NCBI GenBank assembly: GCA_947451285.1
Contig: CANFYL010000009.1
Coordinates: 1-36,171, forward strand
Direction: 5' to 3'
DNA: 36,171 bases
From: Comamonadaceae bacterium
GTDB lineage: Bacteria > Pseudomonadota > Gammaproteobacteria > Burkholderiales > Burkholderiaceae_C
This document shows positions 2,791 to 20,739 of this stretch, in pieces. The stretch's first letter is position 1; each line of letters starts with the position of its first letter. The notes beneath the pieces were generated by a model that was not told the origin of the DNA, did not search any database, and saw only the letters and a program-made list of their open reading frames with translations. A program made the position numbers and the translations under genes.

Positions 2791-4215
2791 TTATTTACCG
2801 ATGCAAAAGCTCGAAAAAATAACACCCAGTAAATCGTCGGATGTGAACTCTCCGGTGATGGCATTGAGTGCGTTTTGCCCCAGCCTTAGCTCTTCGGCCA
2901 ATACATCCAATGCAGGATGTTTCGCTTCAAGACCCTCCTGGGCATGATGCAAGTGCTCTTGAACCTCTCGCAGCGCTTGAACATGTCTTTCGCGCGCCAT
3001 GAACACACCATCGCTTGCACCTGCTTGCCAACCCACCACGCTCAACAGTTTTTGCCGCAATAAAGCCAAACCTTCGCCTGTTTTGGCTGACACCACGAGG
3101 TCTTGCTCTGTCGCTGGTTTCTCTGTATCAGCATGTGCTGCATCGGCTTTGTTCCATAGGTGCAAGAGCGGCACGTGCCTCGCCAAGGTGTTGGTCAAGG
3201 TCGAAAGGATGCGCGCATCGGCCTGCATGTAGGCCCTGTCTTGCTGGCGGGTAAGGTCATGGAGCATGAGCACCGCATCGGCCAAAGCAATTTGCTCCCA
3301 CGCACGCGACATGCCAATTCGCTCCACCTCATCAGCTTGATTGTGATCTCGCAAACCAGCCGTATCAATGACGTGAAGCGGAACGCCTTCAATTTGGATC
3401 GTTTGTTGAACCACATCGCGGGTCGTGCCCGCAATCGGCGTGACAATGGCCAATTCTGCGCCTGCCAAGGCATTCAGCAAAGAGCTCTTACCGGCATTGG
3501 GTTGGCCTGCAATCACCACCCGAATACCTTCTCGAAGCAATGCTCCTTGCTGTGTCCGCTCCAAGACCTGCACAAGTTGCTGTTGCAGTTGCGCCAGCTG
3601 CCCTTGTGCGTTGGCTTGTTGCAAAAAATCAAGGTCTTCCTCTGGAAAATCCAGTGTGGCCTCAACCAGCATGCGCAGATGAATCAGCGCGTCGCGAAGT
3701 CGATGGATCTCTGCCGAAAATTCCCCCGCTAATGAGCGGCTTGCACTTCTCGCGGCAGACTCGGTGCTCGCATCGATCAAATCAGCCACCGCCTCCGCTT
3801 GTGCCAAGTCAAGCTTGTGGTTCAAAAAAGCCCGCTGAGTGAACTCTCCGGGTTGTGCCAAACGTAAATCTGGCAAAAGCGGTGATTGACTGTCATGGTG
3901 TGTTGCCGCCAGCGCCATACAGCGTGATAACAGCAGTTGCAACACCACCGGTCCACCATGGGCCTGCAGCTCTAAGACGTCCTCGCCGGTATAGCTGTGC
4001 GGCGCAGGAAAGAACAAGGCCAGCACATGGTCTATCGGAACACCATCCGCATCATGCACAGGAAGATATGTGGCTTCGCGCGCTTTCAAGACACGCCCAC
4101 ACAAGGCTTGCACAAGTGGCACAAGGCCTTTTGCGCTAATGCGAACAATGCCTACCGCGCCGCGTCCTGCGGCAGTCGCAATCGCAATGATCGGAGCGTC
4201 GTGTTGAGCCAGCAT
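2791..4215 (-). CDS. mnmE: MnmE (TrmE), tRNA modification GTPase
   Basis: A 474-residue GTPase that works with MnmG to install the 5-carboxymethylaminomethyl group on uridine 34 of some tRNAs. The N-terminal tetrahydrofolate-binding domain begins [19 protein letters not shown] and includes the [15 protein letters not shown] segment. The inserted G domain has GQPNAGKSS (237-245), TTRD (264-267), DTAG (284-287) and NKAD. The protein ends in the conserved FCIGK, whose Cys is the family's C-terminal cysteine. I chose the ATG at 4215; a TTG two codons upstream is also open. A terminator hairpin lies only about 17 bases upstream and no clear Shine-Dalgarno is seen. Its partner gene mnmG is 20 kb away on the other side of the origin, the usual arrangement. 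Confidence 0.97.
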
Positions 4216-4287: not shown

Positions 4288-6000
4288 TTAAAACCTGGGA
4301 AGATTGAACTGCGGTGGCACACCCATGCGTGTGTTGATGACCCACTGCTGAGCAATCGACAGCACGTTGTTGGTTATCCAGTAGAGCACGAGGCCTGCCG
4401 GAAAGAAAAAGAACATCACGCTGAAAGCTAAGGGCATGATCCACATCATCTTCGCTTGCATCGGATCTGGCGGCGCAGGGTTGAGTGCAGTTTGCAGCAT
4501 GGTGGTAGCCGTCATGACCAAGGGCAGAATGAAGAAGGGGTCTGGCGCAGCAAGATCGTTGATCCATCCTACCCATGGTGCGTTTCGCATCTCAACAGTC
4601 GACAGCAAGACCCAATACAAGGCAATGAACACCGGAATTTGAATTGCAATGGGCAAGCAACCACCCATCGGGTTGACCTTTTCTTCTCGGTAGATCTTCA
4701 TCATCTCCATTTGCATTTGCTGGGGGTTGTCTTTGAGGCGTTCACGCATCTCCATGATGCGTGGGTTGACCGCTTTCATTTTTGCCATGCTCTGGTAGGC
4801 GTGGGCATTGAGCCAATAAAAGCCCGCCTTGAGCAAGATCACCAAAGCCACAATCGACCAGCCCCAATTTCCAAGGTAATGGTTGAGCTTGTCGAGCAAC
4901 CAATAAAGCGGCTTGGCCATGATGGTCAACCAGCCATAGTCTTTGACCAGCTCTAAGCCTGGATAGATGGCTTCGAGCTTCTTTTCCTCTTGGGGGCCAG
5001 CATAAAACGTGGCAGACACGCTTTTGGTTTCTCCCGCCTTGATGCTCTCCAGGGGGGCAATCAAGGTCGCACGGTAACAACAGTCTGGCAAGCTCGAACC
5101 AATGTCAACCGCATCGATCGATATGCTGCGGTTGAGGCCATCAGGCAACACCCAGGCGCTGACAAAGTAGTGCTGCACCATGGCGATGTAGCCGTTCGCA
5201 GACTCTTTTTCAACATCCACTTTTTTCTTTTTGATGTCTGCAAACTCCACTTTCTGATACTTCTTGGCCTCTGTGTACACCGCAGGACCCGTGAACGTGG
5301 AGTAAAAAGACGATTCGCCGACGGGTTTGTTGCCATCACGGACCAACTGGAAATACAGCTGTGGGGCAATGTCTTGTTGCCCAACGTTGACGATGTCGTG
5401 CTTGACCGCCACGTCATAGGCGCCACGCTTGAGGGTGAATGTTTTCACCAGCTTCAACCCGCCTTGGACAGGCGACTCGAAAACCACCGTCAATTCGTTG
5501 GCGTTTTTGTCCAACTCGCGCGGTCCGGGTCGCACACTCATGCGTGTCTTGTGTGTCGGCAAGCCCTCCCCTGTGGCACTGCCAATCAACCCTGTTTGCG
5601 CCTGATAAATGCGCTCCGCGCTGTCATCGAGCAAGATGACGTTTTTCCCAGCATGGTTGACATCGGCATGCTGCAAAAACTCAAGCCTTGCAAGCGTTGC
5701 GCCATCGGTGTCGAAACGCAGTTTCAGGACATCACTCTGCACGTCCACGAACTCTTTGTTTTGGTTGGTCGATTTTTCTGCGCCCGGCAAAACAGCAGGC
5801 CCCGCACCCGTGAGTGCTGGAGGAACATCGGCGGCTTGCGTGACGCTTGACGCCGCAGGGCTACGGTTTTCTTTGGCAGCCGTTGCTGGCGCCGGGAAAA
5901 ATGTGGCTTTGTTGCCGTTGTGCACTTGCCATTGGTCCCACAGCAGGACCATGGAAAACCCAAAAATCACCCACAAAATGGTGCGACGAATGTCATTCAT
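4288..6000 (-). CDS. yidC: YidC, membrane protein insertase
   Basis: A 570-residue inner-membrane insertase of the long Gram-negative type. The N-terminal segment (NDIRRTILWVIFGFSMVLLW) is the first membrane helix and is followed by a Pro/Ala-rich linker and a large periplasmic domain. The conserved C-terminal 60KD_IMP domain begins near YGWLTIMAKPLYWLLDKLN and contains NWGWSIVALVILLKAGFYW, the cytoplasmic hairpin with MKAVNPRIMEMRERLKDNPQ, and the terminal helices. YidC inserts and folds membrane proteins alone or with SecYEG. The start at 6000 matches the family N-terminus, follows GGAAGAAA, and overlaps the end of yidD by 8 bases. The gene is the last of the rpmH-rnpA-yidD-yidC set and is closed by a terminator. 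Confidence 0.98.
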   Translation of the reverse strand: MNDIRRTILWVIFGFSMVLLWDQWQVHNGNKATFFPAPATAAKENRSPAASSVTQAADVPPALTGAGPAVLPGAEKSTNQNKEFVDVQSDVLKLRFDTDGATLARLEFLQHADVNHAGKNVILLDDSAERIYQAQTGLIGSATGEGLPTHKTRMSVRPGPRELDKNANELTVVFESPVQGGLKLVKTFTLKRGAYDVAVKHDIVNVGQQDIAPQLYFQLVRDGNKPVGESSFYSTFTGPAVYTEAKKYQKVEFADIKKKKVDVEKESANGYIAMVQHYFVSAWVLPDGLNRSISIDAVDIGSSLPDCCYRATLIAPLESIKAGETKSVSATFYAGPQEEKKLEAIYPGLELVKDYGWLTIMAKPLYWLLDKLNHYLGNWGWSIVALVILLKAGFYWLNAHAYQSMAKMKAVNPRIMEMRERLKDNPQQMQMEMMKIYREEKVNPMGGCLPIAIQIPVFIALYWVLLSTVEMRNAPWVGWINDLAAPDPFFILPLVMTATTMLQTALNPAPPDPMQAKMMWIMPLAFSVMFFFFPAGLVLYWITNNVLSIAQQWVINTRMGVPPQFNLPRF

Positions 6001-6842: not shown

Positions 6843-7042
6843 GTTGATTCCAAATATCTGAACCCTGTCGATCAGGGAAACCGATAATTATCGCAAATTT
6901 TTCAGGGCTCAGCAAGCCCGTGCGCCCACGCCAAGAATGGCTAAGTTTTGGTTCCCTCTGTTTTTTATTCATCCTGTGGATAAATTTTTGATAAAGTCTG
7001 TCACCGCGTTCCTTTTGCGCGTACCTATCCACAGAAAAACTC
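6843..7042. promoter_or_regulatory. Divergent rpmH/dnaA control region with DnaA boxes
   Basis: This 200-base, AT-rich spacer must hold the promoters of both rpmH and dnaA. It has a perfect DnaA box in reverse orientation at 6975-6983 (TGTGGATAA) and a one-mismatch box in forward orientation at 7025-7033 (CTATCCACA), only 9 bases before the dnaA ATG. Together they form an inverted pair that fits DnaA autoregulation. It also holds the 12-base palindrome CGATAATTATCG at 6882-6893 and a small hairpin CCCTG-TCGAT-CAGGG at 6863-6877 in the rpmH leader. I could not place -35 and -10 boxes with confidence. Confidence 0.7.
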
Positions 7043-8458
7043 ATGATCCAGGGCGCTCCACCATCCAACAGTTCAGACGGCTTGCCAGCAGGTTCTGGCG
7101 ACGGTTTGTGGCAAGCTTGTGTCGACCAATTGGCGCAAGAACTGCCAGAGCAACAGTTCAACACATGGATCAAGCCACTCACAGCCACCGTGGCTGACGA
7201 CCTGAGCCGGGTGGTGGTTTTGGTCGGGAATCGTTTCAAGCTCGATTGGATTCGAGCTCAATACGCACATCGAATCGCCAGCATCCTGCACCAGATGTAT
7301 GGCCAGCCTGTTCAGCTTGAGTTAGCGATCACTCCTAAAGAACAGCCGATAAAATCTCGCTCTCTGCCTTTTTCTCAAGAATTAGAGGCTTTGCCAGAGA
7401 GTCTGATTGGTTTAGAAGAGTCTGCCCCCAATGGACCGCGCACACGGCTCAACACCGCATTGACGTTTGACAGTTTGGTCGAGGGCACGGCCAACCGAAT
7501 GGCCAGGGCGGCGGCCATGCACGTGGCCACCATGCCAGGACAACTGTACAACCCACTGTTTATTTATGGTGGTGTCGGTTTGGGCAAGACCCATTTGGTT
7601 CATGCGGTGGGCAATAAGCTGCTGGCAGAGCGCCCTGACGCCAAAGTTCTCTACATCCATGCAGAACAATTTGTTTCGGATGTGGTTAAGGCCTATCAGC
7701 GCAAAACCTTTGACGAATTCAAAGAGCGTTACCACTCCTTGGACTTGCTGCTCATCGATGATGTTCAGTTTTTTGCCAACAAAGAGCGAACCCAGGAAGA
7801 GTTTTTCAATGCCTTTGAAGCCTTGCTGGCCAAAAAATCACACATTGTGATGACCAGCGACACCTACCCCAAGGGTTTGACCGACATCCACGAACGTTTG
7901 GTGTCACGCTTTGATGCAGGTCTGACTGTAGCGATTGAGCCCCCAGAACTTGAAATGCGGGTGGCCATTTTGATCAGCAAGGCACGCAACGAAGGAACCG
8001 AAATGCCTGAAGAAGTTGCATTTTTCGTTGCAAAAAATGTTCGCTCCAACGTGCGTGAACTAGAGGGTGCACTGAGAAAAATACTGGCGTATTCCCGTTT
8101 TAACCAAAAAGAAATTTCAATTCAACTTGCACGCGATGCGTTGAGAGACTTGTTGTCGATTCAAAATCGACAAATTTCTGTTGAAAACATTCAGAAAACA
8201 GTCGCGGATTATTACAAGATCAAAGTTGCAGACATGTATTCCAAGAAGCGTCCTGCTTCAATTGCGAGACCCAGACAAATCGCCATGTATCTGGCTAAGG
8301 AACTGACACAAAAAAGTCTGCCGGAAATTGGAGAACTTTTTGGTGGCAGAGATCACACCACGGTACTTCATGCAGTTCGTAAGATCACGGCAGAACGCTT
8401 GCAATTGACAGAACTCAACCAACAACTTCATGTGCTTGAACAAACACTCAAAGGTTAG
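7043..8458 (+). CDS. dnaA: DnaA, chromosomal replication initiator
   Basis: The full-length initiator is 471 residues. Domain I (about 20-100) begins [21 protein letters not shown], the interaction and oligomerisation region. A linker follows. Domain III is an AAA+ ATPase with Walker A GGVGLGKT (176-183) and Walker B LLLIDDVQ (235-242). Domain IV ends with the DNA-binding signature [15 protein letters not shown] (about 434-448), where Arg436, Asp437, His438 and the two Thr contact DnaA boxes in the family. It opens the origin and loads the helicase. A DnaA box sits just before the ATG, suggesting self-regulation. dnaN and gyrB follow in the same direction. Confidence 0.99.
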
Positions 8459-8504
8459 AAACCCTCTGTGCAAAGCTGTGGATGATTTGATAACAAGTCA
8501 CGAC

Positions 8505-8513
8505 TTATCCACA
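8505..8513 (+). promoter_or_regulatory. DnaA box, perfect TTATCCACA
   Basis: It matches the strict DnaA-box consensus. With the reverse near-box at 8477-8485 it forms an inverted pair CTGTGGAT...ATCCACAG with about 20 bases between the two 9-mers. Confidence 0.85.
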
Positions 8514-8649
8514 GAAGACATACACCTGATGAAGTTATCCAGTTTGATGACACACCAAAAAACAGGCTTGCCAACAGCATGAAAGAGAACTCAAGTGCTT
8601 GAAAAAAAAGAGGAAAATGGTGTTTTCCACAGTAACCTGCTGTGCTTAT

Positions 8650-8661
8650 CTACTACTACTA
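8650..8661 (+). promoter_or_regulatory. Candidate DnaA-trio element
   Basis: CTACTACTACTA is four tandem CTA triplets. The complementary strand therefore reads 3'-GAT-5' four times, the optimal DnaA-trio, which DnaA binds as single-stranded DNA during opening. It lies 18 bases after the box at 8623-8631 and directly before an AT-only stretch (8661-8672). Confidence 0.65.
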
Positions 8662-8689
8662 ATTTAAATTAAGAAATCAAGAGGAAACC

Positions 8690-14156: not shown

Positions 14157-16421
14157 ATGAGTGATACCACCTGTGACATTGGCATTGGCGGCATGACCTG
14201 CGCCTCATGCGTGGCCCGTGTGGAGCGAGCCATCGCCAAACTGCCAGGGGTAACGGATGTCAGCGTCAATTTGGCCACGGAGTCCGCGCGTGTAGTCTGG
14301 AATGACGACGACGCCAGCCACGAAGCGCGCTTGCGTCGTGCGGTCCGTGATGCCGGGTATGAGCCCCTGGCACCCGAGCACCTGGAACAACAAGCCGCAG
14401 GTCCGTGGGTGGGTTTCTTTCCGGTGTTGGCTGGTTTGGTGTTGAGCTTGCCCTTGGTGTTGCCCATGCTGGGGGACGTGTTGGGCCAGCATTGGATGCT
14501 GCCTGCGCTGTGGCAATTTTTGTTGGCCACGCCCGTGCAGTTTGTGTTGGGCGCGCGTTTCTACAAAGCGGGTTGGCACGCCTTGCTGGCGGGCACAGGC
14601 AACATGGACTTGTTGGTGGCCCTGGGCACCACGGCCGGCTGGGCCTTGTCGGTGTGGTTATGGTGGTCGTCACCTGCGGGCACCATGGTGCACTTGTATT
14701 TCGAGGGTTCGGCGGTGGTCATCACGTTGGTGCTTCTGGGCAAATGGTTGGAGGCCCGCGCCAAACGTCAAACCACCGACGCCATTCGTGCGCTGCATGC
14801 CTTGCGTCCCGCGCGCGCGCGCGTCATCGGGCCGGATGGCGAACAAGACATTCCCATTGAAGAGCTGTTGGTGGGCGACCGTGTGGTGGTGTTGCCAGGC
14901 GAGCGAGTCCCCGCCGATGGCCGGGTCTTGGCGGGCGACTCTCAACTCGACGAATCCATGCTCACGGGCGAACCGCTGCCTGTGCCCAAGGGTGTTGGGG
15001 CCCGCTTGACGGGTGGCAGCATCAACGGTGAAGGGCGTGTGGTCATGCAGGTCTTGGCCACCGGAACCGCTACCGTCTTGGCCAACATCATCCGTTTGGT
15101 GGAAGACGCGCAATCGGCCAAGGCCCCCATTCAACGTCTGGTGGATCAAGTCTCCGCAGTGTTTGTGCCCGTGGTGTTGGTGTTGGCCTTGCTGACCTTG
15201 CTGGCCTGGTGGTGGAGTGGCCACAGCGTCGAGCTGTCGCTCATCCATGCCGTGGCCGTGTTGGTCATTGCCTGTCCGTGTGCCCTGGGGCTGGCCACGC
15301 CGGCCGCCATCATGGCGGGCACGGGCGTCGCGGCCCAGCATGGCATCTTGATCAAAGACGTGCAAGCGCTGGAGCTGGCCCACCGCGTGGACACGGTGGC
15401 CTTTGACAAAACGGGCACGCTGACGGTGGGCCAACCACGGCTGCTCTCGCTCACACCCGTCGCAGGCACCGCCGAGGCCGCTGACGCTTGGCTGAGCATG
15501 GCCGCCAGCTTGCAAAGCGGCAGCGAGCACCCTCTGGCCCGCGCCGTGGTGCAGGCCGCCAAGGCCCAGAGCCTGGTGTTGGCGGCCCCAGGCACCGTGC
15601 GTGCTGTGCCTGGTTATGGCAGCGAAGGCCTGGTGCAGGGGCGCGCCTTGCTGTTGGGCAGTTTGCGCTGGATGACCGTGTTGAACGTGACAGACACAGC
15701 CAGCCAAGCCGCGCCCTGGGAGGTGCAAGCGCAGGCCTTGCAGGCCCAAGGCGCCACGGTCTCGGTGTTGGTGGAGCGCGTGGGTTCGGGCGACACGGCG
15801 CAGTTGTTGCCGCGCGCCTTGTTGGCCTTTGGTGACGCGCCGAAACCGGGTGTGCAAGCCGCCTTGGCCGCGTTGCGCGCACGCGGTTTGCGCTTGGTCA
15901 TGGTCTCGGGCGACAACTGGGGCGCGGCACGTGCCATGGCGCAACGCTTAGGACTGCGCGACGACGAAGTGCATGCCGAGGTGTTGCCGGGGGACAAATC
16001 TGCCTTGGTGCAACGCTTGCAGCAGGGCGACAACGGGGCCCGTCGGGTGGTGGCTTTTGTGGGGGACGGCATCAACGATGCGCCCGCCTTGGCGGCCGCA
16101 GATGTCGGCATGGCCATGGCCAACCCCAACGGGGGCGGCACCGACGTGGCCATGCAAGCCGCAGGCATCACGCTCATGCGCGGCGAGGTGGCTTTGGTCG
16201 GTGCGGCGCTGGACATCTCACGCCGCACCGTGGCCAAGATTCGGCAAAACTTGTTTTGGGCCTTTGCCTACAACGCGGCGGGCATACCGTTGGCCGCCTT
16301 GGGCTACTTGAGCCCGGTGATGGCGGGTGCGGCCATGGCCTTGAGCTCGGTCAGTGTGATGACCAACGCCTTGCTCCTCAAGCGTTGGTCACCACGGGCG
16401 GGGTCTGAGAAAAATCAGTGA
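14157..16421 (+). CDS. copA: CopA, Cu(I)-exporting P1B-type ATPase
   Basis: A 754-residue pump with one N-terminal HMA domain (GMTCASC, Cys15 and Cys18). The actuator has TGE (270-272). The transmembrane metal site is CPC (373-375, in [14 protein letters not shown]), the phosphorylated Asp417 is in DKTGT, the SEHPLARA motif identifies P1B pumps, and GDGINDAP is the hinge. YNAAGIP in the seventh helix and MALSSVSV in the eighth match the Cu(I) subgroup. It exports cytoplasmic Cu(I) to the periplasm. The ATG at 14157 stands 14 bases after AAGGAG. Its promoter must lie upstream within or beyond the divergent HMA gene. The last seven bases overlap the convergent RND gene. Confidence 0.96.
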
Positions 16422-19400
16422 CCGTTGTGGCTAGGTGGCTTGGGGCTGTTGGAGAACCAAGCCACATACAAAGCGGGCAACACCACCAAAGTCAGCAGCG
16501 TGGCGGTGAACAAGCCACCAATCACCACAATCGCCAAGGGCCGTTGCGTCTCCGAACCAATGTCGTGGCTCAGCGCCATCGGCAGTAAACCCAGCGCTGC
16601 CAACATCGCTGTCATTAAGACCGTGCGCAAACGTTGCAAGGCGCCCTCTTTGACAGCGTCCATCACGGAGAGACCGGCGTTGCGCAGCTGCTGAAACACC
16701 GACAACATCACCACACCGTTGAGCACCGCTTGGCCGGACAGCGCGATAAAGCCAATCGCCGCAGACACCGACAAGGGAATGCTGAAAATCCACAGCGCCA
16801 CAAAGCCACCAATCAAAGCCAAAGGCACGTTGAGCAAAATCAGGCCTGCCGTTTTGAACGACGCAAACGCGTCAAACAGCAGCACAAAAATCAACAACAG
16901 CGAAATGGGCACCACCACCGCCAAACGTTGCATGGCGCGTTCTTGGTTTTCAAATTCGCCTGACCAGGTAACCGCGTAGTTGTCGGCAATCGTCACGTTC
17001 TTGGCCACACGTGCTTTCATGTCGGCGACGACCGATCCCATATCGCGGCCTTTGACAAAAATGCCAATGGCCATCGTGCGCCTGCCCGCCTCACGCGCAA
17101 TGTTCATGGCGCCGCTGGCTTGTCGGATGGTGGCCACCGTCTCAAGCGTGGTGTAGCCCCCGCCCGGCATGGCGATGGCGGTGGTGGGCAAACTGGCCAC
17201 CGTTCGCTTGTCGCCCGGCAGTCGCAACACCACGCTGAACTTGCGCTCACCCTCCCAAATTTGGGTGGTGGCGCGCCCGGCGAGTGCTGACTCGATCACG
17301 TCTTGCACATCGCCCACATTCAGGCCCAAGCGCGAGGCGCGATCGCGGTCAATGTCGATCACCAGCTGTGGCACTTCGCCCAAGCGGTCAATCTCGGCGC
17401 GTTGCACCCCTTGCACTTGTTTGAACTCGCGTTGCATGGCTTCCGTGGTGCGGCGCAGCTCGGCCAAATCGTCGCCCGAGACTTTGACCACGATCTGGCC
17501 TTTGATTTGTGAAATTGACTCCAGCACGTTGTCACGAATCGGCATCGAGAACGCGGGGTCTACGCCCGGTATCACGGCCAGCTTTTCGTCCATCTCTTCA
17601 ATCAGCAGCTCGCGCGTCATGCCCTTGCGCCATTCTTCGACCGGCTTCACGTCGACAAACACTTCGGCCATGCTGAGCGTTTTAGGATCTGTGCCGTCTT
17701 CGGGCTGCCCGGCTTTGGACACCACGGTGCGTACTTCGGGCACGGTGAGCAGTTGCAGGCGCGCTTTGCGCAAAATCTTGGCCGCCTCTTCTTGTGACAC
17801 GCTGGCCGGCATGTCCCAGTTGACCCAGAAGGTGCCTTCGTTGAGCTCAGGCAAGAACTCCGAGCCCAAATGCGCTGCCGCTACGATGGACAAGGCAAAA
17901 CAGCTCAACGCGATCGTGACCACTTTGCGGGGTTTGTCAATCGCCCAGTCCAGCACCGGCGTGTACACCTGTTTGGCCCATGCCACCAGCCGGTTGTCGC
18001 CGTGCGGAATGCCTTTTCGCAACATCCAGTAGGCCAGTAAAGGCACCAAGGTGAGTGAAAAAATTAAAGCCCCAATCAGTGCCGTGGTCACCGACAAGGC
18101 CATCGGCTGGAAGATGCGGCCCTCATGGCGTTGCAACGCAAAAATCGGAATGTGCGCCGCAATGATGATCAACATCGAGAACAAAGTAGGACGCCCCACC
18201 TCATTGGCTGCGTTGGTGATCAGCGCGCGACGCTCTTTCTCGTTCATGCCCTCGCCGCGTTCGGCCAAGCGATGCATGATGTTTTCAATCACGATCACGG
18301 CACCATCCACGATGATGCCAAAGTCCATCGCGCCCAGGCTCAGCAAGTTGGCCGGCACACCCATGATCTTGAGGCCCAAGAACGTGGCCAGCAAGGCCAG
18401 CGGAATTACCACTACCACCGCCAAAGAGGCGCGCATGTTGGACAGGAACAGGTAAAGCACCAACGAGACCAGCAGCGCACCTTCGACCAAGTTTTTGAAC
18501 ACCGTGGTCAAGGTTTTGCCCATCAGCCATGAGCGGTCGTAGAAGGGCTCGATTTGCACCCCGTGAGGCAGCACACGCTTGTTCAGGTCGGCAATTTTTT
18601 CTTTGACGCCTTTGAGCACTACGCTGGGGTTTTCGCCTTTGCGCATGATCACGATGCCGGTCACCACATCGTCGTCCATGTCTTGTCCTACGGTGCCTAA
18701 TCTGGGGACCGCACCAACGCTGACTTTGGCCACGTCGCGCACCAGCACGGGTGTGTTGCTTCGGGCGGTGACCACAATTTGTCCAATGTCATCGGCCGAG
18801 CGCAACAGGCCCAACCCACGGATGGCGAACTGCTGTGCGCCTTGCGCCACATAACTGCCACCCGCGTTGGCGTTGCCTCGGCCCAGCGCATCTTGCAAGT
18901 CTTGCAGCGTGAGTTTGTAGGCGCGCAGTTTTTGCAAGTCGGGTTGCACCTCGTACTGTTTGATGTAGCCGCCCATGCCCACCACATCGGCCACACCGGG
19001 AATCTGGCGCAAGGCGCGCTCGACGGTCCAGTCTTCGATGGTGCGCAGCTCGGTGGATGTTTTGCCGTCGCCTTTGAGGCGATAGCGCATGATCTCGCCC
19101 ACGGGCGTGGCATTGGGCATGACTTCGGCCTCGACGCCAGGTGGCAAGTCGACGCCGCGCAAGCGCTCGTTGACTTGTTGGCGCGCCAAATTGACTTCGG
19201 CTTTGTCGTCATAGGTGACGACGGTGAAAGACAGTCCAAACTGCGTGTGCGAGAACACCCGAATCGAGTTGGGCAAGCCCGACAGCGCCACTTCGATGGG
19301 CAGAGAAACCTCTTTTTCAACCTCTTCCGCCGCGCGCCCAGGATAGAGCGCAATCACCGTGACCTGCGTGTCGGTGACATCTGGAAATGCTTCCACCGAC

Positions 19401-19498
19401 AGGTTGTTGAAGGCAACCACACCGGACATGATGAACAGCAGCGTGCCCAGCAGAATAAACAGGGGCTGGTTCAGCGCATAGTGGATCAGCCGTTTCAT
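16415..19498 (-). CDS. czcA: Heavy-metal efflux RND transporter, inner-membrane pump (CzcA/CusA family)
   Basis: A 1027-residue proton-driven RND pump of the heavy-metal (HME) family. It begins [17 protein letters not shown] and has the usual two halves of transmembrane helices and large periplasmic loops, such as [25 protein letters not shown] and [18 protein letters not shown]. The fourth transmembrane helix reads [15 protein letters not shown], with Asp392, Asp398 and Glu405, the charged triad of CzcA/CnrA-type divalent-cation pumps; Cu/Ag pumps of the CusA type lack it. This favours Zn, Co, Cd or Ni over Cu(I), although copA is next door. It is the last gene of a C-B-A operon and overlaps the adaptor gene as ATGA. 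Confidence 0.92.
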
Positions 19499-20739
19499 GG
19501 GGCGGCAGCTCCAGGGGCGGCTGCAGGCGTGTGTGTTTTGGCTTGCTCCTCGGCGTTTCTGAATTCGCGCGCCAGCAGCAAGCTGTTGTCTTTAACGATC
19601 TGTTCGTTGGCTTTGAGGCCGTCAACGATCAGTACCTCTTGCAAGCCTTCATAGCCCAGACGCACGCGACGCGGTTCAAACACGCCGGGCTCGGTTTGTA
19701 CATAGCACCAGTGTTCGGTGCCGCGCAGCTGCACAGCGCTGGCGGGCACCAACACACCTGCAGCGAGCTGACGTTCGATGCGCGCCGTGCCCAGCATCTC
19801 GGCTTTGAGCAAACGCTGTCGGTTGTCGATCACGGCGCGGACCTTGATGGTTCGGCTCGTTGGGTCGATGAAGTCGCCCGTGGCCGCAATCGTGGCTTCG
19901 AACTTTTGGCCCACGAGATTGGGCAACACCAGTTCAATTTTGGTGCCTGGTTTGAGGGATGCCACGTCAGACTCGCGCGCATCAATTTGAACCCACAACG
20001 AACTGGGGTCGCTCACCACAAACAAGGCTGGATTGCCGGGGCCGCCTTGGTCGGGGCGCACTTCCAGGCCTGCGCTGAGGTTGCGTTCCACCACCACGCC
20101 GGAGATGGTGGCTGACACCCCCAGCTTTTGGTTTATTAAGCCGCCGCTGCCATACATGCTGGTGCGCGCTTGTGCCCGCGCCACCTCGGCTTGCGCACGC
20201 GATGCGTCAGCTTCGGCCTGCTCCAGGTCTTTGCGCGACACGATGCCCGCATTGAACAGGGTTTGTTGCCGTGCCAAGGCGCGCTCGGTCAAACGGGCAT
20301 CGGCAAGCGCCTTGGCGGTGTCGGCTTGTGCGGCACCGAAATCGGGAGAGGCAAACGTGGCCAACACTTGACCTGCCTTGACGTTTTGCCCGACATCCGC
20401 GTTGAGTTGCACCACGCGTCCTGCGAATGCAGGATAGATCCTTTGGGTACGCTCTTCGTTCCACACCAAACGTGCTGGCAAATCAATGGTCACACTCTGT
20501 GCGGCAACAGCAGGCGATGTGCCCAGCAAGGCCAGCTGAGGGTGGCCGGCAGGAAAGCGCAGTTGTTGGCCTTGCACGATGGGCTGAGCGATGACCGGGT
20601 GTGCGGCCAACTCGGGTTTGCTCAGCCAGAAGCCCAGGGTCAGCAACGCCAGCAAGCCAACAGCGGCGCTCCAGCGTTTTGTCGGCGTGTTCAAGAGGGT
20701 TTGCAGCTTATTGGGTTCGCTGGTGTTGTCGTGGTTCAT
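19495..20739 (-). CDS. RND efflux periplasmic adaptor (CzcB/CusB-type membrane fusion protein)
   Basis: The protein has 414 residues and one N-terminal membrane anchor (about 23-40, SAAVGLLALLTLGFWL). Next come a lipoyl-like segment (IYPAFAGRVVQLNADVGQNVKAGQVLA), a coiled-coil hairpin rich in Ala, Gln and Arg (about 155-210, QADTAKALADARLTERALARQQ), and beta-barrel and membrane-proximal segments (LWVQIDARESDVASLKPG). It bridges the inner-membrane pump and the outer-membrane channel. The tail [14 protein letters not shown] is low-complexity and I see no added CusF-like metal domain. It lies 12 bases after the outer-membrane gene and overlaps the pump gene by four bases. Specificity is taken from the pump. 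Confidence 0.92.
   Translation of the reverse strand: MNHDNTSEPNKLQTLLNTPTKRWSAAVGLLALLTLGFWLSKPELAAHPVIAQPIVQGQQLRFPAGHPQLALLGTSPAVAAQSVTIDLPARLVWNEERTQRIYPAFAGRVVQLNADVGQNVKAGQVLATFASPDFGAAQADTAKALADARLTERALARQQTLFNAGIVSRKDLEQAEADASRAQAEVARAQARTSMYGSGGLINQKLGVSATISGVVVERNLSAGLEVRPDQGGPGNPALFVVSDPSSLWVQIDARESDVASLKPGTKIELVLPNLVGQKFEATIAATGDFIDPTSRTIKVRAVIDNRQRLLKAEMLGTARIERQLAAGVLVPASAVQLRGTEHWCYVQTEPGVFEPRRVRLGYEGLQEVLIVDGLKANEQIVKDNSLLLAREFRNAEEQAKTHTPAAAPGAAAP

Follow-up and report, generated by a model that had tools for sequence, protein, structure and literature searches.

The replication origins of Escherichia coli and Bacillus are usually taught as two distinct mechanisms of opening a chromosome. 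The basal unwinding system (BUS) at incC of Bacillus subtilis consists of DnaA boxes followed by 3'-GAT-5' trios (PMC6669920, PMC8287927, PMC10721633). Structural work on B. subtilis shows each trio gripped by two adjacent DnaA molecules, both of which contribute residues, and although no key residue is conserved universally, their properties generally are (PMC10721633). Trio origins have already been predicted throughout bacteria: a BUS was predicted in 1755 of 2070 origins, and BUS sequences are reported from all over the bacterial tree, in which five classes of Proteobacteria are marked, under a search rule that allows a spacer of 0-16 bases between box and trios (PMC8287927). The left half of E. 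coli oriC comprises the DUE, R1, IBS1 and R5M (PMC10380432), and the stretch beside R1 is annotated as an IHF site (PMC7174414). In some gammaproteobacterial origins IHF motifs and 'DnaA trio' motifs are given separately (PMC7174414), and it is an open question whether the putative trios of E. coli are used (PMC13220808).

Here we analyse a dnaA-dnaN spacer in which both kinds of element are found, and follow its counterparts through related genomes. What seems to be new over the known trio origins is an IHF-centred trio core together with its repeated relocation; no description of such a core in betaproteobacteria, or of its repeated moves, was found in the open-licence PMC literature, supplements aside.

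The dnaA-dnaN spacer and its resemblance to a basal unwinding system

The window, that is, the whole stretch of 36,171 bases that was analysed, is the entire contig C9 of a draft genome that is 62% complete. An identical DnaA occurs in a Comamonadaceae MAG, and the DnaA of Limnohabitans sp. B9-3 is 91% identical to it. Upstream of dnaA, on the other strand, are mnmE and yidC; gyrB lies downstream. DnaA boxes in the spacer were sought with the consensus TTATNCACA, allowing at most one mismatch, and the locus is made up as follows.

7043-8458, + strand: dnaA, matching solved DnaA structures across most of its length
8477-8485, - strand: near DnaA box TCATCCACA, one mismatch, in reverse orientation
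8505-8513, + strand: perfect DnaA box TTATCCACA, in the part of the spacer nearer dnaA
8568-8576, + strand: distal box position TTGCCAACA, weak, with three mismatches, in a register like that of R5M, with 15 bases between it and the IHF-like motif
8592-8604, + strand: IHF-like motif CAAGTGCTTGAAA, one mismatch to YAANNNNYTGATW (the IHF consensus quoted in PMC10380432, reverse-complemented)
8605-8622, + strand: A-rich 18-base spacer from the IHF-like motif to the proximal box
8623-8631, + strand: proximal DnaA box TTTTCCACA, one mismatch, in an R1-like register
8632-8649, + strand: 18-base gap with the 3' end GCTTAT (family consensus before the run, CCCTTA)
8650-8661, + strand: four DnaA-trios CTACTACTACTA, CTA x4 (3'-GAT-5' on the other strand)
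8662-8672, + strand: AT-only stretch ATTTAAATTAA
8690-9796, + strand: presumably dnaN, by gene order and sequence

An earlier note on this DNA had placed the CTA run and the AT-only bases after it in the spacer, at positions that proved exact, and its four uninterrupted perfect trios were confirmed, CTACTACTACTA being the sole match with at most one mismatch in the 36,171 bases of the window and such a match being found in none of 100 dinucleotide shuffles. The forward DnaA boxes that it described are indeed forward at 8505-8513 and 8623-8631, but the near-box at 8477-8485 is reversed. GATC is absent from 8566-8683. Over the whole window 13 DnaA boxes were observed against 16.4 expected, and since this is not above expectation, box enrichment was dropped as evidence for an origin.

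Directly upstream of dnaA stand two DnaA boxes that point towards one another, one of them perfect and the other with one mismatch (6975-6983, - strand; 7025-7033, + strand). A similar facing pair was seen by eye before dnaA in most of the listed loci of relatives whose spacer has no CTA run, and the pair probably serves dnaA autoregulation. About 8 kb from the putative origin, 16415-20739 (- strand) encodes a CusA/CzcA-type heavy-metal RND efflux permease and its adaptor.

Like the BUS of B. subtilis, the window has boxes followed by 3'-GAT-5' trios, here beside dnaA; unlike it, the window has a gap of 18 bases rather than at most 16, in which no second conserved box was seen, and an IHF-like motif upstream. 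A BUS calls for at least three in-frame 3'-NAN-5' trios, which are present (CTA x4, then ATT), and for an upstream DnaA box with at most two mismatches, for which TTTTCCACA, with one, suffices; the conserved box nevertheless oversteps the published 0-16 base spacer by two bases, and the window passes the rule only via an overlapping two-mismatch box, TTATCTACT, with a 1-base gap and three trios. Because the conserved box misses the 16-base limit, we do not file the locus as a textbook BUS, though we propose that it may work like one, coupled to a bend of the E. coli type. The rule is in any case unusable alone as a yes/no test here, since only 28 of the 58 modules compared below satisfy it with the CTA run. 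The window DnaA retains the B. subtilis trio-contact residues E183, K222, E223 and E228, and has N187 changed to S, I190 to V, I193 to Y, N196 to K and R202 to K; the change of N to S and that of I193 to Y strain the published statement that residue properties are generally conserved.

Conservation, relocation and replication start

The earlier note had regarded the 18-base gap as the weak point of the locus, and had proposed that the dnaA-dnaN spacers of relatives be aligned. From a DnaA scan we took the best 80 of 584 loci, in 78 of which both genes were readable (L005 and L028 are without dnaN). The CTA run is present in 32 of these 78 spacers, counting imperfect forms in L011, L023, L040 and L074 as well as L002, which is nearly the window itself; it is absent from 46, where the lack of conservation that the note had named as refuting its reading does occur, yet 44 of those 46 genomes match the module elsewhere. 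Proximal box and run are 18 bases apart in 22 of the 32 spacers, 17 in seven and 14 in three, and in these last three the run has a 16-base form, CTACTAGCTACTACTA, whose end is still 30 bases from the box. The gap does exceed the published 16-base limit, but it is real and recurs in the spacers of relatives, and is hence a family trait. The distance from run to dnaN is 40-59 bases, with one of 271, and the run is therefore tied more to the box than to dnaN. On a tree of DnaA and DnaN, the state of the spacer changes at least seven times, with three changes forced by well-supported branches (by a quick method, and with several long branches).

A 64-position module model, R1, was built from 32 sequences. 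At E ≤ 0.01 it matched in 225 of 299 family genomes, the other 74 being without a match at this threshold, and in 184 genomes drawn over the class it gave nine matches, which are the window's genome, one more family member and seven outside the family, the best of these seven at 2.6e-4. At the dnaA loci of the 46 organisms with a run-less spacer the model had no match even at E 1, and no exact CTACTACTA was found upstream of dnaA in the run-less loci examined, some of which have little upstream DNA. The matches elsewhere in 44 of these genomes all reach E ≤ 0.01 (the weakest, in G492, at 0.0075), with two genomes giving none at that level. Thirteen of the 46, including Comamonas testosteroni NFYY023 and Delftia acidovorans, have two matches 417-573 bases apart on one strand, and Variovorax boronicumulans Xaverov has three inside 2 kb.

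We located dnaA in the best 80 of 130 listed genomes that match the model, taken strongest first and so picked for strong matches. The best module match lies 162-275 bases downstream of dnaA, always on dnaA's strand, in 39 of these 80 genomes, and elsewhere in 41: in 26 it shares dnaA's contig at a distance of 7.6-184 kb (on the opposite strand in 18 of the 26), and in 15 it is on another contig. Judged by these matches, the core appears to be self-contained, lying kilobases from dnaA in many relatives and often in two nearby copies.

Modules away from dnaA are often paired, some 400-800 bases apart on one strand (e.g. L112, L113 and L129). Two modules flank dnaA in G252 (L127), pointing apart (3152-3211, - strand; 5319-5379, + strand), and G118 and G250 each have one module beside dnaA and another about 24 and about 28 kb off respectively; the doubled modules of these three genomes are possible intermediates of a move, or double origins. 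The moved module of L115 (4525-4584) stands directly before minC-minD, linking origin and division-site genes, and protein clustering seems to give the same order in L118 and L128. Other moved modules lie near GGDEF/EAL proteins or a TctC protein; the guess of a location at mnmG/parAB found no support in a scan of 20 proteins from a few loci.

GC skew, also suggested beforehand as a check, spoke for the dnaA-dnaN region in a relative and less sharply in the window itself, where the skew rises from -0.019 ahead of the spacer to +0.022 beyond it but the cumulative minimum falls at 14 kb, 5 kb past the spacer. In the single-contig congener G073, sampled 20-kb stretches were positive in 11 of 11 cases from position 1 to 1.22 Mb and negative in 9 of 9 over 1.40-2.545 Mb; the sampling excluded 2.545-2.574 Mb, and the last 20 kb before dnaA has a skew near zero (+0.006). 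The change of sign across dnaA-dnaN therefore places the origin of this genome within about 50 kb of the two genes, and no finer. A skew switch of the kind that marks a chromosomal oriC was thus found in G073, by sampling and to within about 50 kb, and also at a moved module in G242, where the cumulative minimum over 400 kb, at 705-710 kb, encloses the module (707.5 kb), dnaA lying 180 kb away at 527 kb. Skew support is weaker or ambiguous in the other moved cases. In G175 the skew is negative at dnaA (182 kb), has its cumulative minimum at 240 kb and is clearly positive from 265 kb, the site of two modules; in G039 it changes near 75 kb (modules at 69 and 73 kb, dnaA at 185 kb), with the lowest cumulative value at the end of the stretch; and in G276 it steps up near 40 kb (modules at 42 kb, dnaA at 1) and is irregular elsewhere. 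The minimum of G197, at 630 kb, is ambiguous, falling between module (598 kb) and dnaA (653 kb), and in G250, which has modules at both places, the skew is too weak to choose between them.

Cupriavidus metallidurans presumably belongs to the same broad family as the window organism. On chromosome 1 of its strain CH34 the skew switch lies about 90 kb from dnaA-dnaN, adjoining a 213-base region with three perfect DnaA boxes (PMC2864759). This origin is like the moved modules in having its skew switch away from dnaA-dnaN; compared by description, the excerpted account of it mentions no trios or IHF-centred module (PMC2864759).

The IHF-like motif and the register of E. coli oriC

Fifty-eight modules were compared, 35 beside dnaA and 23 elsewhere, the spacing of the IHF motif being no part of their selection. 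Upstream of the proximal box they have a second conserved block, CAAGTNNTTGATW, which matches the reverse complement of the IHF consensus. An IHF-like motif with at most one mismatch is present in 43 of the 58 (shuffle mean 2.1, largest 6), and in 41 the motif stands exactly 18 bases before the proximal box (shuffle mean 0.05, largest 2). Exactly 15 bases before the motif lies the best box-like 9-mer of 37 of the 58 modules (23 of the 35 beside dnaA, 14 of the 23 elsewhere). This distal 9-mer is usually a poor box, with at least three mismatches in 51 of the 58; in the 51 modules that were aligned, its terminal CA is invariant and the preceding A is kept in at least 90%. The tendency of the family is a distal box, IHF-like motif, proximal box and trios spaced 15/18/18. 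Across the 60 bases compared, median identity between modules is only about 50%, and the common spacing is therefore not mere recent copying. At the run itself, three of the four cytosines are invariant in the 51 aligned modules and the fourth is kept in at least 90%, the AT-rich bases after the run varying more; part of this agreement is selection, since the modules were picked by patterns or by a model containing the run.

An ihfA-type profile matched in 12 of 12 genomes, eight of them above the curated cut-off. The window's genome scores 118.1 bits against a cut-off of 120.25, and because the profile also matches 9 of 14 control genomes (above the cut-off in one only), matches below the cut-off, the window's included, may be relatives such as HU.

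On the strand of K-12 oriC in which R1 reads TTATCCACA, the box TCATTCACA, which we take to be R5M, is followed after 15 bases by the IHF-like motif CAGGTTGTTGATC (two mismatches) and after 18 more by TTATCCACA. A register matrix made from the 58 modules, with the proximal box omitted, was scored over 901 bases of E. coli oriC; the box-IHF-R1 register ranks first of 1652, and none of 20,000 shuffles scores as high. A longer model, R2, was made from 51 of the 58 modules, the seven with more than two IHF mismatches being excluded. In a search of 37 kb it matches E. coli oriC at E 0.0013; the alignment breaks off within the gap, short of the trio positions, and E. coli therefore does not share the trios. 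At E ≤ 0.01 R2 matched in 55 of 232 class genomes, 52 of them outside the family, where chance alone should give about two if the rough E-values are right. R2 carries no positional information, yet of its best nine loci outside the family seven lie in the dnaA-dnaN spacer, one upstream of dnaA and one beside a gene that by eye is rpmH.

The window is thus like the left half of E. coli oriC in its order of distal box (three mismatches), 15 bases, IHF motif (one mismatch), 18 bases and R1-like proximal box, then the opening region. It is unlike E. coli oriC in adjoining dnaA and in having perfect trios in place of the 13-mer DUE with its GATC sites, GATC being absent from 8566-8683.

Proposed opening of the origin and its alternatives

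From the arrangement of its parts, we consider it probable that 8568-8672 of the window is the unwinding core of oriC, in which an E. coli-type bent box pair would feed Bacillus-type trios. DnaA would occupy the proximal box (8623-8631) and the weaker distal box (8568-8576), with IHF (or HU) bending the intervening motif in the manner of the left half of E. coli oriC. A DnaA filament anchored at the proximal box would extend onto the strand complementary to CTACTACTACTA and capture the 3'-GAT-5' trios as in the Bacillus BUS, upon which the adjoining AT stretch would melt and allow helicase loading. The motifs, their recurrent spacing, conservation and relocation, the agreement with skew in some genomes and the IHF-type genes were observed directly. 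Binding by DnaA and IHF, bending, trio capture and strand opening are what we infer from sequence. The origin module with DnaA-trios that had first been suggested is supported by conservation, geometry and skew; calling it Bacillus-like was incomplete, as an IHF-like motif and a distal box, which the note does not mention, stand upstream of the proximal box at E. coli spacing.

Were the locus instead a plain Bacillus-type BUS of box, short spacer and trios, the upstream motif would be incidental and IHF would have no part in opening. The trios are of the commonest type, 3'-GAT-5', and systems of this kind are predicted in most origins surveyed (1755 of 2070; PMC8287927). We nonetheless find this rather unlikely, given that 41 of 58 modules have the IHF-like motif exactly 18 bases from the box and that the gap is above the published limit, with 28 of 58 modules passing the rule and the window doing so only through TTATCTACT. 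An oriC that works wholly in the E. coli way, its bent box pair recruiting a single-stranded DUE and its CTA run being just easily melted DNA, would account for the register of box, IHF motif and box common to E. coli, where the role of the putative trios is itself unknown (PMC13220808). The near-invariant cytosines of the run, in modules partly selected by that run, count against mere melting, because AT-richness alone needs no cytosines, and we hold this reading to be unlikely.

The run might also be a dnaN promoter or leader, or a simple-sequence repeat, with no role in replication, for it lies 28-40 bases before the start of dnaN and slippage can produce triplet runs. Since its distance to dnaN varies more than its distance to the box, the best module match is 7.6-184 kb from dnaA in 26 of the best 80 genomes, and a module sits at the skew minimum in G242, this reading seems very improbable.

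If the proposed core, with its bent box pair and trios, is correct, origins in which perfect trios are combined with the bend geometry of E. coli would allow either part to be mutated in one molecule, and the module model may locate origins where dnaA misleads, as in the 41 of the best 80 genomes whose best match lies elsewhere. We regard it as evenly poised whether beta- and gammaproteobacteria share an ancestral core of distal box, IHF bend, proximal box and trios in 15/18/18 register, of which E. coli kept the spacing and changed the trios, and which in the family of the window organism was movable, left the spacer several times and was sometimes doubled, carrying the start of replication with it. 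If this is true, the two modes of chromosome opening that textbooks describe would be the extremes of a single mechanism.
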